64,000 nt of DNA from Burkholderiales bacterium (lineage in GTDB: Bacteria > Pseudomonadota > Gammaproteobacteria > Burkholderiales > Casimicrobiaceae), in NCBI GenBank assembly GCA_016790165.1, contig JAEUPL010000030.1, positions 124,001-188,000 of the forward strand, written 5' to 3'. Each line of letters starts with the position of its first letter. Position 1 is the stretch's first letter. Of this stretch, positions 2,770 to 57,615 are shown piece after piece. The notes under the pieces are model-generated. The model made no database searches. It was not told the origin of the DNA and was given only the letters and a program-made list of their open reading frames with translations. Position numbers and translations under genes: made by a program.

Positions 2770-3348
2770 CGCCTTGCCTGTCCGGCAAACGGGGCGGCAC
2801 GGACCCGTTTCGGCGAATCGGCTTTTCAACACAATGACCTCTGGACGGTGTGCGGTACGTGGACTTGTCGCGTCGGTGCGTGGTAACGGCGTGGCCAAAA
2901 CGCGGCCATTTGAGCGACGCAAGCGTCCGCACCACCCCGCCGCGCGACGGTCGCGGTGTATCGCTACAGCACCTACCTCGCTGGTACGGCGGACGGTGAC
3001 GTTGACCGTGTCGTGGCAACAGCTTTTCCCGTCAAACGACCGGAAAATGGTCGTTCCAGGCTGATTTTTCTACCTATCGACTTAGTGAACTATTCTCGTG
3101 GAACGACCGCCCGCTGGTCGATAGAACGCGTTTCTCAGTGAAAGCTGTATCGCACCGCAGACCGAGCGCGCCGCAGCGTGCTCGACGCAAAAAATGTTCC
3201 GTCTGCGTGTTCGCTATCGCGAATGCGTTTCTACGTGCACGGTATCCATTTCGCATCGTATTCTTACTGTCCCGCTGTCCAGCGGCTGCTCGTCCCGAGT
3301 GCCGCTTGACGTGCGCGATTTGACCGAAAACAAAAAACAGAGAACACC
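2770..3348. other. 579-base intergenic region upstream of the first RCC1 gene
   Basis: I see no convincing gene here. The region holds copy 1 of the symmetric dispersed element (3019-3148). The remainder is arginine-rich shadow reading frames without family features. The last 40 bases before the ATG at 3349 are A-rich (GAAAACAAAAAACAGAGAA), which may help translation start. No clear promoter pair could be assigned by eye. Confidence 0.6.
3019..3148. repeat. Symmetric dispersed element, copy 1 (130 bp form)
   Basis: Begins ACAGCTTTT and ends AAAGCTGT. It contains a dyad at about 3035-3055 (AACGACC-N7-GGTCGTT), a T-run, TCGACTT at offset 59-65, a second dyad AACGACC-N7-GGTCGAT, then AGAACGCGTTTC before the right end. 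It aligns without gaps to copy 2. Confidence 0.88.
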
Positions 3349-5736
3349 ATGCTGCGCCTTCATACCATCTGCGCCGCAGGCGCACGCCTCTTGCGCGCCC
3401 TCGCCGCACTCGCAATGCTCGTAGCTCTGCCCGCTGCGGCTAAGAGCTATGTGCAGGTCTCGGCAGGCGGCTCTCACACCTGCGCCGTGTTTGGTAGCGG
3501 CGGCGTGCAGTGCTGGGGGAGCAACGGCTACGGTCAGTTGGGCAACGGCAGTACCACCACCAGCACGCCAGTCAACGTGACTGGCCTCGGCAACGCCATC
3601 GCCGTCAGCGCGGGCTACGCTCACACCTGCGCCGTGCTCAATAGCGGCGGCGTGCAGTGCTGGGGATACAACGCATTTGGTCAATTAGGCAACGGCAGCA
3701 CCACCGACAGCAGCACGCCGGTCAGCGTGAGCGGCGTCAGCAATGCCATCGCCATCAGCGCGGGCGGCTTTCACACCTGCGCCGTGCTTGGCAACGGCAG
3801 CGTGCAGTGCTGGGGGAGCAACGGGGACGGTCAGTTGGGCAACGGCAGCACAGACGCGAGCAGCTCGCCGGTCAGCGTGAGCGGCATCAGCAACGCCATC
3901 GCCGTCAGCGCGGGCGAATTCCATACGTGCGCCGTACTCGGTAGCGGCGGCGTGCAGTGCTGGGGAGGCAACGGGGATAGTCAGTTGGGCAACGGCAGCA
4001 CCAGCGCGAGCGGCACGCCGGTCAGCCTGAGCGGCATCAGCAACGCCATCGCCGTCAGCGCGGGCAACGCACACACCTGCGCAGTGCTCAGCAGCGGTGG
4101 CGTGCAGTGCTGGGGGTACAACCTATTCGGTCAATTGGGCAACGGCAGCACCAGCGCGAGCGGCACGCCGGTTAGCGTGAGCGGCATCAGCAACGCCATC
4201 GCCGTCAGCGCGGGCACCTATCACACCTGTGCCGTGCTCAGCACCGGTGGCGTGCGGTGCTGGGGACACAATGGCTACGGTCGGTTGGGCAACGGCAGCG
4301 CGACCGACAGCAGCGCGCCGGTCAGCGTCAGCGGCGTCAGCACCGCCATCGCCATCACTGCCGGCACATATCATACCTGCGCCCTGCTCGGCAGCGGTGG
4401 TGTGCAATGCTGGGGCCGCAACGTAGACGGTCAGCTAGGCAACGGCAGCACGACTACCGGCAGTGCGCCGGTCGGCGTAGGCGGCCTCAGCCACGCCATC
4501 GCCGTCGGCGCGGGCTACGCTCACACCTGCGCCGTGCTAAATACCGGCAGCGTGCAGTGCTGGGGATACAACGCATTTGGTCAATTAGGCAACGGCAGCA
4601 CCACCGACAGCAGCACGCCGGTCAGCGTGAGCGGCATCAGCAACGCTACCGCCGTCAGCGCGGGCGCACTGCACACCTGCGCCGTGCTCAGCAGCGGCAG
4701 TGTGGAGTGCTGGGGGCTCAACGGCGACGGTCAGTTGGGCAACGGCAGCGCCACCGCGAGCAGCACACCGGTCAGCGTGAGCGGCCTTAACAACGCTATC
4801 GCCATCAGCGCGGGCACCTATCACACTTGCGCCCTGCTCGGTAACGGCGGCGTGCAGTGTTGGGGGGGCAACGGAGACGGTAAGTTGGGCAACGGCAGCA
4901 CCGCCGCGAGCAGCTCGCCGGTCAGCGTGAGCGGCATCAGCAACGCCATCGCCGTCAGCGCGGGCGAATTTCATACGTGCGCTGTACTCAGTAGCGGCGG
5001 CGTGCAGTGCTGGGGATACAACGGAAATGGTCGGTTGGGCAACGCCGGCGCCACCAATAGCAGCACACCGGTCAGCGTGAGCGGCCTCATCAACGCCAGG
5101 GCGGTCAGCGCGGGCAGCGCTCACACCTGCGCCCTGCTCGGTAGCGGCAGCGTGCAGTGCTGGGGACGCAACGGCAGCGGCGAGTTGGGCAACGGTAGCA
5201 CGACCGACAGCAGCGTGCCAGTCACCGCGCACTCCATCAGCACCGCTACGCAAGTTGCGGGGGGAGGCGGCCATACCTGTGCGCTACTCACCACCGGTGC
5301 GCTCCGTTGCTGGGGTTACAACGCCTTTGGTCAGATCGGTGATGGCACGACGACCACGCGCACTGCCTCCGCCGCAGTGCTCGGCGTGAACAATCCGACA
5401 CAAGTGGAGGCCGGGGACGCGCACACCTGCGCCCGGTTGAGCACCGGCCAAGTGATGTGTTGGGGCCGCAACGGGCTGGGCGAACTCGGCGACGGGCGCG
5501 CACCTTTCGACCAAACCGCGCCGGTGTACATCAGCGCCACCTGTGACCTCGACATCGACGCCGACGGGGAGATCAACAGTACCACCGACATGCTGCTCCT
5601 CACGCGCGCCAAGATGGGCCTGTCCGGCACCGCCGTCACCAGCGGCGCGCTGGGTGCGAACGCCAAACGCACCACCTGGGCCGAGATTCGCTCCTACCTC
5701 GAAGGGGCGTGCCGCGTGTACGGGCTGGCGCCCTAA
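3349..5736 (+). CDS. Secreted RCC1-repeat protein with 14 repeats and a C-terminal dockerin-like loop
   Basis: A 795-residue protein. Residues 1-31 form a signal peptide (a hydrophobic [12 protein letters not shown] run with an A-A-A cleavage site). It is followed by 14 copies of a 50-residue RCC1/BLIP-II-type unit, each with an HTCAxL..G...CWGxNxxGQLGNGS pattern. Fourteen units would fit two seven-bladed propellers. Every unit has one Cys in HTC and one in CWG, compatible with disulfides in an exported protein. The last 64 residues (732-795) start [16 protein letters not shown], a D-x-D-x-DG calcium loop like one dockerin/EF-hand half, and then a TTW-x-x-I-R helix shared with the next two genes. 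Function is unknown; RCC1 propellers generally mediate protein binding. Confidence 0.9.
3455..5500 (+). repeat. 150-bp tandem coding repeats (14 units) in the first RCC1 gene
   Basis: The coding DNA repeats with an exact 150-base period, for example at 3601, 3751 and 3901. An 85-base stretch at 3651-3735 recurs unchanged at 4551-4635, exactly six units later. This points to recent block duplication or gene conversion within the gene rather than slow divergence of all units. Confidence 0.9.
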
Positions 5737-6145
5737 CGGGCTGCTGAAATACTTCACGCGGCGCGCAGAAACGCAGCCTCGAACGCATGGCGTCGGTTTG
5801 ACCACGCCTGCGCGCGTGAAACCGTGAACGCGAGAAAGCCTAGACGGAAGTTTCACGAGAACGCCTCACGAAATGCGTCGCCACCGCGGCAAGGGCTGGT
5901 GTGGCGAACCGCTGGCGTCATCCGCGTTCTTTGTTGACAGCTTTCGTACTCTAACGACATCTGTACAGTCGTTTCAGGCGGTTTTTTTGCCTTGTCGACT
6001 TATGGAGATGTTTTCTTAGAACGACCAACCGGCGGTCGATACAACGCGTTTTCCTGCAAAAGCTGTATCCCGCCGACAACGACCGCTGAGCCGTTTTTTC
6101 GCCGTTGCGCTTTGAGGAGTATCCACAGTTTGCGGGGTGCTTCGC
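5737..6145. other. Intergenic region between the first two RCC1 genes
   Basis: About 400 bases with no plausible gene. It contains copy 2 of the symmetric dispersed element (5937-6066). No clear rho-independent terminator follows the first RCC1 gene, although the dyads of the repeat itself could form hairpins in RNA. Confidence 0.6.
5937..6066. repeat. Symmetric dispersed element, copy 2 (130 bp form)
   Basis: ACAGCTTTC at the left end and AAAAGCTGT at the right. Dyad 1 is AACGAC-N8-GTCGTT. Then come GGCGGTTTTTTTGCC, GTCGACTTA at offset 58-66, dyad 2 AACGACC-N7-GGTCGAT, and a CAACGCGTTTTCCTGC tail. It gives the clearest view of the family architecture. Confidence 0.9.
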
Positions 6146-57225: not shown

Positions 57226-57483
57226 ATGGACTACATCATATTGGCACTGGTCGGCCTTGTTGTCGGTGCGATCGCAAAATTTTTGGTGCCCGGCAAGCAG
57301 GGCGGGGGCATTATCGTGACCGCACTGCTCGGCGTCGTCGGTTCCCTGCTGGGCACCATCGGCGGACAGCAGTTGGGGATCGTATCGAAGACGGCCGGTA
57401 CGCACTGGATCGCCTCGATTGTCGGCGCGGTGATCGTCGTATTCGTCTACGGGTTGATCACCAAGAAATCGGACGGTTCGTAG
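57226..57483 (+). CDS. GlsB/YeaQ/YmgE-family stress membrane protein
   Basis: An 85-residue protein after the RBS GGAGGAG. Three small helices: IILALVGLVVGAIAKFLVPG, GGGIIVTALLGVVGSLLGTIGG and ASIVGAVIVVFVYGLITKK, the transglycosylase-associated family. It is often induced by envelope or acid stress. Copy 7 of the symmetric element starts 14 bases after its stop. Confidence 0.92.
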   Translation: MDYIILALVGLVVGAIAKFLVPGKQGGGIIVTALLGVVGSLLGTIGGQQLGIVSKTAGTHWIASIVGAVIVVFVYGLITKKSDGS

Positions 57484-57496
57484 CCACGACTCACCA

Positions 57497-57615
57497 GCGG
57501 CTTTTCTGGGCCATTGACCGACCGGTGGTCGCTTGCGGCCAATTTTTCAACAAGTCGACTGCAGCCAATTCTGACCCGCATTGACCAGACAGCGGTCGTT
57601 TGACGCAAAAAGCTG
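57497..57615. repeat. Symmetric dispersed element, copy 7 (119 bp)
   Basis: Degenerate left end GCGGCTTTT, right end AAAAGCTGC. GTCGACT is at offset 58-64, dyad 1 is GACCGACCGGTGGTCGC and dyad 2 is GACC-N7-GGTCGTT. It lies between convergent genes, before the rplQ terminator. Confidence 0.82.

Follow-up and report, generated by a model that had tools for sequence, protein, structure and literature searches.

The 64,000-nucleotide window analyzed here (positions 124,001 to 188,000 of the forward strand of contig JAEUPL010000030.1, assembly GCA_016790165.1; Burkholderiales bacterium, Casimicrobiaceae) is part of a 3.76-Mb genome in 41 contigs, labelled G000, whose relatives are labelled G001 to G016. 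It contains seven copies of a symmetric intergenic element of about 120 bp, which belong to a genome-wide family of nearly fixed length that is spaced evenly along the chromosome. Judged from the sequence, we regard as evenly balanced the proposal that the element is a genus-specific, vertically kept docking platform for a candidate protein and a site of chromosome architecture; we infer protein binding, a single oligomeric factor, and a chromosome-organizing role. The features of the window that bear on this proposal are the following.

3019..3148: element copy 1, 130-bp form whose right arm has 10 additional bp; it lies upstream of an RCC1-repeat gene
5937..6066: element copy 2, 130-bp form, with an RCC1-repeat gene on each side; 0.69 identity to copy 1
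12561..12690: element copy 3, 130-bp form
33568..33687: element copy 4, 120 bp; the equivalent gene gap in G013 also holds an element
37958..38078: element copy 5, 121 bp; the equivalent gene gap holds an element in G015, and none was found in G013
49418..49537: element copy 6, 120 bp; an element stands beside the same downstream gene also in G008 and G001
57497..57615: element copy 7, downstream of rplQ
57513..57533: dyad box in the left half of copy 7; the consensus in the family is AACGACC-N7-GGTCGTT
57554..57559: GTCGAC at the symmetry center of copy 7
57580..57600: right dyad box of copy 7
57632..57658: intrinsic-terminator-like hairpin with A and T runs, seen in the sequence between copy 7 and rplQ and separate from the element

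All seven copies lie where a preliminary description of the window had placed them, with lengths of 130, 130, 130, 120, 121, 120, and 119 bp, and the TCGAC reported at offsets 59 to 63 is present in every copy (GTCGAC at 58 to 63 in five of the seven). The inverted ends hold overall, except that copies 4 and 6 start TCAGC and TCATC and that copy 7 starts GCGGC and finishes AAAAGCTG, its final T missing. The dyads AACGACC-N7-GGTCGTT are sound as a consensus, with both dyads perfect in none of the seven copies; they are better kept than the spacers as sequence and not as base pairs, their self-complementarity equaling the value obtained by mixing copies. Placement of all copies between genes stands within the precision of a crude gene caller, the copy at 12561 overlapping the 3' end of a predicted gene by 15 bp and the copy at 33568 abutting a gene. 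An nhmmer profile of the seven recovers every copy on both strands (E values of 3e-22 to 1e-26 and 2e-7 to 8e-17) and finds no eighth copy in the window (next match, E 1.2). The window copies are far beyond chance similarity. The three 130-bp copies (3019, 5937, and 12561) are neighbors with a common 10-bp insertion, roughly one helical turn, and pairwise identities of 0.69, 0.62, and 0.55; the insertion is probably one event that spread via local duplication. Three adjacent RCC1-repeat genes occupy window positions 3349-8973, with two of the 130-bp copies beside them, as if duplicated together.

Searching the genome with a profile of these copies, a check proposed in the preliminary description, returned a genome-wide family and not just a few chance-level copies. 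A sequence-only model built from the seven (R1) has at least 150 matches in G000 (the best 150 of 1,127 candidates, both strands counted). Iterated nhmmer over a G000 sample of 1,227,400 bases in stretches, the window included, gave 91 copies above 35 bits, one at 20 bits, and a remainder at or below 10 bits; by proportion, the whole genome would hold about 280 copies. Among the 90 copies above 40 bits (a count that omits a 37-bit copy), 81 are 120 bp long, four are 119 bp, two are 121 bp, and three are 130 bp, and the length in relatives runs from 118 to 120 bp. No clear half copies or fragments occur in the 1.23-Mb G000 sample. Pairwise identity among the 81 120-bp copies averages 52% and reaches a maximum of 67%, so that none are near identical. 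The 27 least conserved columns show an identity of 0.287 versus 0.296 for independent draws, which suggests that common ancestry has been erased there and that these columns are saturated. Position-specific information amounts to 87.6 bits in G000 and to 69 to 91 bits by species. The terminal inverted repeats have consensus ends ACAGCTTTT and AAAAGCTGT with few deviations; since an A or T is kept directly outside each end (76 and 77 of 80 G000 copies), 122 bp is the better measure of the unit. Three weak element-like matches in G000 may be decayed copies: C15:2915-3016 (20 bits), C9:93211-93269 (8 bits), and C7:97071-97143 (9.8 bits), the last of which lacks the element ends and lies 0.3 kb upstream of a Y1 transposase domain.

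One alternative is an ancient non-autonomous transposon, a miniature inverted-repeat transposable element (MITE) or a REPIN-like unit, whose insertions were spaced by target immunity and which is now mostly inert. Inverted ends, high copy number, intergenic placement, presence and absence of copies between species, and the A or T that borders almost every copy at either end would suit such a history, as would a small excess in a looser flank comparison (1.93 versus 1.67 matching bases, P 0.005; the copies are old). However, there is no excess of a 1- to 9-bp target duplication at the exact ends of 80 G000 copies (P 0.17 to 0.88), and the sharp drop from strong to residual matches, together with the low maximum identity, leaves neither clear fragments, decayed length classes, nor near-identical copies. 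Neutral or inert DNA diverged to this extent is also expected to gather many indels, of which the element has almost none. With orthologous sites retained between species and the RAYT-like genes of G000 standing beside other palindromes (both set out below), we consider this origin unlikely, and the MITE or REP-like mobile element of the preliminary description is disfavored on the same evidence.

REPINs are described as forming hairpins, leaving singlets as decaying remnants, and being copied by RAYTs (PMC8049555), and RAYT genes as being flanked by their own repetitive extragenic palindromic (REP) sequences (PMC2817692). As those sources portray them, REPs and REPINs are like the element in their inverted symmetry, in variants particular to a species, and in number, a genome having more than 100 palindromic units dispersed between its genes; the element differs in having no covariation in G000, no clear fragments, and no recent copies. 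Y1_Tnp, the family that holds the RAYTs, occurs in 15 of the 17 genus genomes, G000 included, some of them without an R1 match. A REP/REPIN assignment was rejected because no RAYT-like gene flanked by the element palindrome was found at the two Y1_Tnp places in G000. The C12 gene flanks carry GTAG-headed palindromes unlike the element, whose nearest copy is about 3 kb away, and the C7 gene has its closest copies at distances of about 7 and 15 kb. The C12 locus (C12:1-3222) comprises two tandem RAYT-like Y1 transposase genes beside GTAG-headed palindromes that begin GTAGCCTCGATGCAGCGC and GTAGCCCGGCTGC, and it resembles an ordinary REP/RAYT system, distinct from the 120-bp element. A second dispersed repeat in G000, which contains the palindrome GTGTTAACAC (AAAATAGTGTTAACACGCCCTA), has about 6 to 8 copies in 1.23 Mb. 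The enterobacterial repetitive intergenic consensus (ERIC), or intergenic repeat unit (IRU), is described as a 127-bp enterobacterial MITE with target duplication, among repeats with long stem-loop transcripts (PMC2229807). It is of similar length, is intergenic, and has inverted ends; the element is set apart from that description by arms without covariation in G000, no target duplication found at exact ends, near-invariant length, even spacing, and lineage-specific sequence variants, here called dialects.

The symmetry of the element, which the preliminary description suspected to be selected, stands as a conserved layout and not as base pairing. Arms were shuffled among copies, and complementarity within a copy (self) was compared with that between copies (cross). 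In G000, a copy agrees with its own reverse complement at 0.523, against 0.520 for the reverse complements of other copies (z 0.6, P 0.30, n=81), and part by part the left dyad, right dyad, and center give z values of -0.8, 1.9, and 0.0. The same fixed-length test is not significant in G015 (P 0.10, n=21), G013 (P 0.18, n=17), and G005 (P 0.93, n=18, and 0.29, n=11). A gapped test yields a small positive z in all five species (1.24 to 2.83; G000, 1.87; G015, 2.83), a signal given little weight, since the cross values depend on one another. The proposed check for covariation in the dyads thus returned none in G000, and the earlier suggestions of a cruciform or an RNA hairpin are unsupported in that genome, the eight G012 copies being an exception that is weighed below. 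The symmetry consists for the most part of sequence kept at mirrored positions, as in protein half-sites, and not of paired arms. The G013 copy downstream of rplQ (L082) is a near-perfect long inverted repeat, 0.83 self-complementary, which sets it apart from the rest and may reflect a recent copying of one arm onto the other.

The position of copies relative to genes raises the alternative of a 3' untranslated region (UTR) RNA element or a transcription terminator. The 90 G000 copies fall in tandem gaps (52), convergent gaps (20), divergent gaps (15), stretch edges (2), and inside a crude gene call (1). Copies in tandem gaps lie at a median of 20 bp from the upstream stop versus 130 bp from the next start, with the stop nearer in 34 of 52, and convergent gaps are preferred to divergent ones (20/87 versus 15/142, P 0.014), as such an RNA would have it. 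Against it stand the missing covariation in G000, a length constrained across unpaired spacers, the 15 of 90 copies in divergent gaps, and the absence of any Rfam match at gathering score in the window, with its seven copies, except a tRNA. Further, a hairpin like that at 57632..57658 is present at the rplQ site in 10 of 10 congener sequences read, and a separate hairpin there makes the element itself unlikely to be the terminator. We regard an RNA or terminator role as highly improbable. A coding element was also rejected: any single frame is open in at most 28 of 81 copies, and the 118- and 119-bp relatives would break the frame. Some fully open frame among the six exists in 72 of 81 copies versus 61 in column shuffles, a small unexplained excess. 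A tRNA-Arg (CCG) is located at window positions 44374-44450 on the minus strand.

Another possibility is a strong site for gyrase or another topoisomerase, in which DNA would wrap over a symmetric 120- to 130-bp site with phased A/T blocks. The Escherichia coli gyrase motif is described as symmetric, 130 bp long, with phased GC and a period of 10.75 bp, and cleavage sites as enriched in the intergenic bacterial interspersed mosaic element BIME-2 (PMC6379681). The likeness lies in symmetry, in a proposed genome-organizing role, and in phased G/C or A/T. At 118 to 120 bp, the symmetric element has a symmetrized A+T profile with a period of 9.25 to 9.5 bp in four of five species samples and 8.25 bp in the fifth (P 0.001 to 0.016, from shuffles that do not keep neighbor correlation). 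However, the known motif is degenerate and BIME-2 consists of REP clusters, neither having a fixed 120-bp box architecture as far as that source describes them, and the source as consulted does not describe congeneric dialects. The element, by contrast, holds 69 to 91 bits by species, its boxes differ between congeners, its phasing weakens when the boxes are masked, and a universal enzyme should not need dialects. A topoisomerase site is, in our judgment, distinctly unlikely.

The family is restricted to the genus with the models used. R1 has matches in 11 of 40 genomes (G000 included), all in the genus, and a second model (R2), built from 25 copies of four relatives, finds the element in 16 of 17 genus genomes, G016 being the one without a match. 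R2 has no match in 47 genomes from six other genera of the family, in a scan with stricter filters and an upper limit of 56 scored candidates per genome, which could miss a strongly different dialect elsewhere. At 80 named betaproteobacterial rpoA loci, five models detect no element (best score, 11.5 bits). The relatives of the G000 RpoA among the matches listed are Betaproteobacteria, with identities of up to 79%, and the assembly yielded no 16S. The exact 19-base G000-dialect pattern occurs in none of the viral_contigs contigs, where other dialects were not sought. No 120-bp element of this kind is described in the titles and abstract openings of the literature matches listed.

Copies are spaced more evenly than random choice among real intergenic slots would produce (two null models, 1,000 simulations each). 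The coefficient of variation (CV) of gaps in G000 is 0.62 versus 0.92 to 0.94 expected, a value reached in 0 of 1,000 simulations in both nulls (85 gaps, mean 13.5 kb), and gaps below 3 kb make up 3.5% versus 18% expected. Evenness is also found in G005 (CV 0.61, P 0.007 and 0.002), G015 (CV 0.60, P 0.016 and 0.014), and G012 (CV 0.26, 11 gaps, 0 of 1,000 in both nulls), and it is not significant in G013 (11 gaps, P 0.29 in both nulls). Mean gaps are 12.0 kb in G005, 9.7 kb in G015, 9.7 kb in G012, and 16.0 kb in G013. The two largest element-free stretches of G000, C18:9198-53042 (44 kb) and 275201-317588 (42 kb), have GC contents of 0.596 and 0.605 versus 0.636 on average, and longer gaps tend to have lower GC (r = -0.55), as if acquired DNA came without elements; such low-GC stretches would be possible genomic islands. 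Sampling of G005, a relative with a complete genome, gives 11 copies per 160 kb for the record start (presumed origin), 32 per 400 kb at 0.9 to 1.3 Mb, and 19 per 240 kb at 2.0 to 2.24 Mb, about half-way round. An origin-to-terminus gradient was considered for G005, where fewer strong matches lie at about 1.4 to 3.0 Mb among those listed, and was rejected on the direct sampling at 2.0 to 2.24 Mb, which shows density as elsewhere.

In the stretches sampled from relatives, the element keeps the same layout with different inner boxes and lengths. These stretches yielded 33 rows in G005 (one site read twice and one separate G000-type locus), 17 in G013, 14 in G012, and 25 in G015; with the G000 model, no element was found in 160 kb of G002. 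Leave-one-out scoring assigned copies to their own dialect in 45 of 45 cases for G000 (every second of the 90 copies), 16 of 17 for G013, 24 of 25 for G015, and 25 of 32 for G005. G000-type sites are a minority in G012 (about 17) and in G005 (three, at E 1e-5), which gives each of these genomes two dialects.

DNA uptake sequences (DUS) are 10 to 12 bp long. Those of the Neisseriaceae, as described, are dispersed sites with a species-wide dialect (PMC3630211) and form the closest parallel for the dialects seen here, which raises the possibility that the element marks DNA for self-recognition or uptake and is maintained because import favors marked DNA. The dialects and the many copies recall the DUS, and even spacing would suit a marker. 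The DUS described in that source are nevertheless short sites in thousands of copies without a 120-bp symmetric platform, whereas here about 280 copies of 120 bp have fixed internal geometry, and we assign an uptake role little probability.

Orthologous positions remain occupied across dialects. The site downstream of rplQ holds an element in G000, G003, G008, G001, G015, G012, G013, and G005, partly of other dialects, and the G000 model has no match there in G011, G004, and G002. In the gap of copy 6, no element was found in G015 and G013 with their own models, nor in G011, G004, and G002 with the G000 model only. Comparing equivalent gene gaps of G000 with those of G005, G012, G013, and G015, both hold an element in 7, only G000 in 4, only the other in 2, and neither in 124 (Fisher 7e-8, on pair counts that are not fully independent); by site, five of eight G000 sites are common to at least one of the four relatives. 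G002 (only G000, 1; neither, 22) was omitted from this comparison because no G002 model existed. Even at shared sites, such as the one after rplQ, the inner boxes vary from one species group to another. At rplQ, the G000 copy and those of other dialects show an identity of 0.40 to 0.45 on either strand, no higher than the means for non-orthologous copies (G005, 0.435; G013, 0.459; G015, 0.441). G005 and G012 match at 0.58 there versus 0.50 (standard deviation, 0.05), and these close relatives may keep some orthologue identity at this site. A species tree from two loci (2,290 columns; G008 has part of one locus only) separates G000, G005, G012, and G013 from all others with 100% support. G003 and G008 lie outside that clade, yet their strong R1 matches assign them to the G000 dialect, so dialect does not follow the two-locus tree; the dialect would have switched, or its reader moved, at least twice.

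Among the interpretations offered in the preliminary description, the paired-dimer protein site fits best with the fixed length, the free drift of spacers, the conserved symmetric boxes, and the even spacing, the protein itself being putative. Fixed length, symmetric boxes, and 88 bits of position-specific information together suggest a docking platform for a protein, and the even placement suggests chromosome organization. In the mechanism we propose, a putative oligomeric DNA-binding protein would read mirror-image boxes on double-stranded DNA, namely, the ends ACAGCTTTT, a pair of inner boxes in each half, an A/T block, and the central AAGTCGACTT, with box spacing fixed and spacer letters free to drift. 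The roughly 280 sites, one per 10 to 16 kb and kept apart, would anchor chromosome architecture as borders of loops or supercoil domains, and where the specificity of the binder shifts in a lineage, the sites would shift along and produce dialects. The parS and matS sites, also palindromic protein sites kept at chromosomal positions, are about 13 to 16 bp long, have fewer copies, and are regional; the element differs in its 120-bp length, its approximately 280 copies, and its similar density in the regions sampled. No known system compared here matches the full combination of element features.

Several observations weigh against this docking-platform proposal. The binder is hypothetical, and the protein search covered the Y1_Tnp family only. 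Arms of the G012 copies match each other beyond shuffles (P<0.0005, n=8), and the approximately 9.5-bp A+T phasing comes mostly from the conserved boxes (P 0.03 to 0.28 with the boxes masked). Only 3 of 14 G012 copies are assigned to their own model, 9 of 14 score as G005, and this genome also keeps about 17 G000-type sites, which suggests that one protein per genome may be too simple. Sites have been gained or lost between species, as the gaps occupied in a single genome of a pair indicate, and the essentiality of any single site is accordingly unsupported. Two other sources of even spacing are conceivable, namely, target immunity in an old transposon and a role as an uptake marker.

A broader proposal, which we put forward tentatively as less than an even prospect, is that the sequences represent a new class of chromosome-architecture element: a symmetric 120-bp protein platform of fixed geometry, evenly placed every 10 to 16 kb, with a fast-evolving, lineage-specific reader and several hundred sites that switch dialect together. 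Under this reading, the two-dialect genomes (G012 and, slightly, G005) might be caught with a switch under way or might have two parallel binders.

To our knowledge, it is unsettled whether the borders of supercoil or loop domains in bacterial chromosomes are fixed and encoded in the sequence. In a published description, diffusible supercoils of a bacterial chromosome move inside domains of 10 kb (PMC3420936). If the proposed role is true, discrete, even, and strongly constrained sites at near 10-kb spacing would make the border question directly testable in these bacteria, and their dialects would constitute a natural experiment in the joint change of a DNA-binding protein and several hundred scattered sites.

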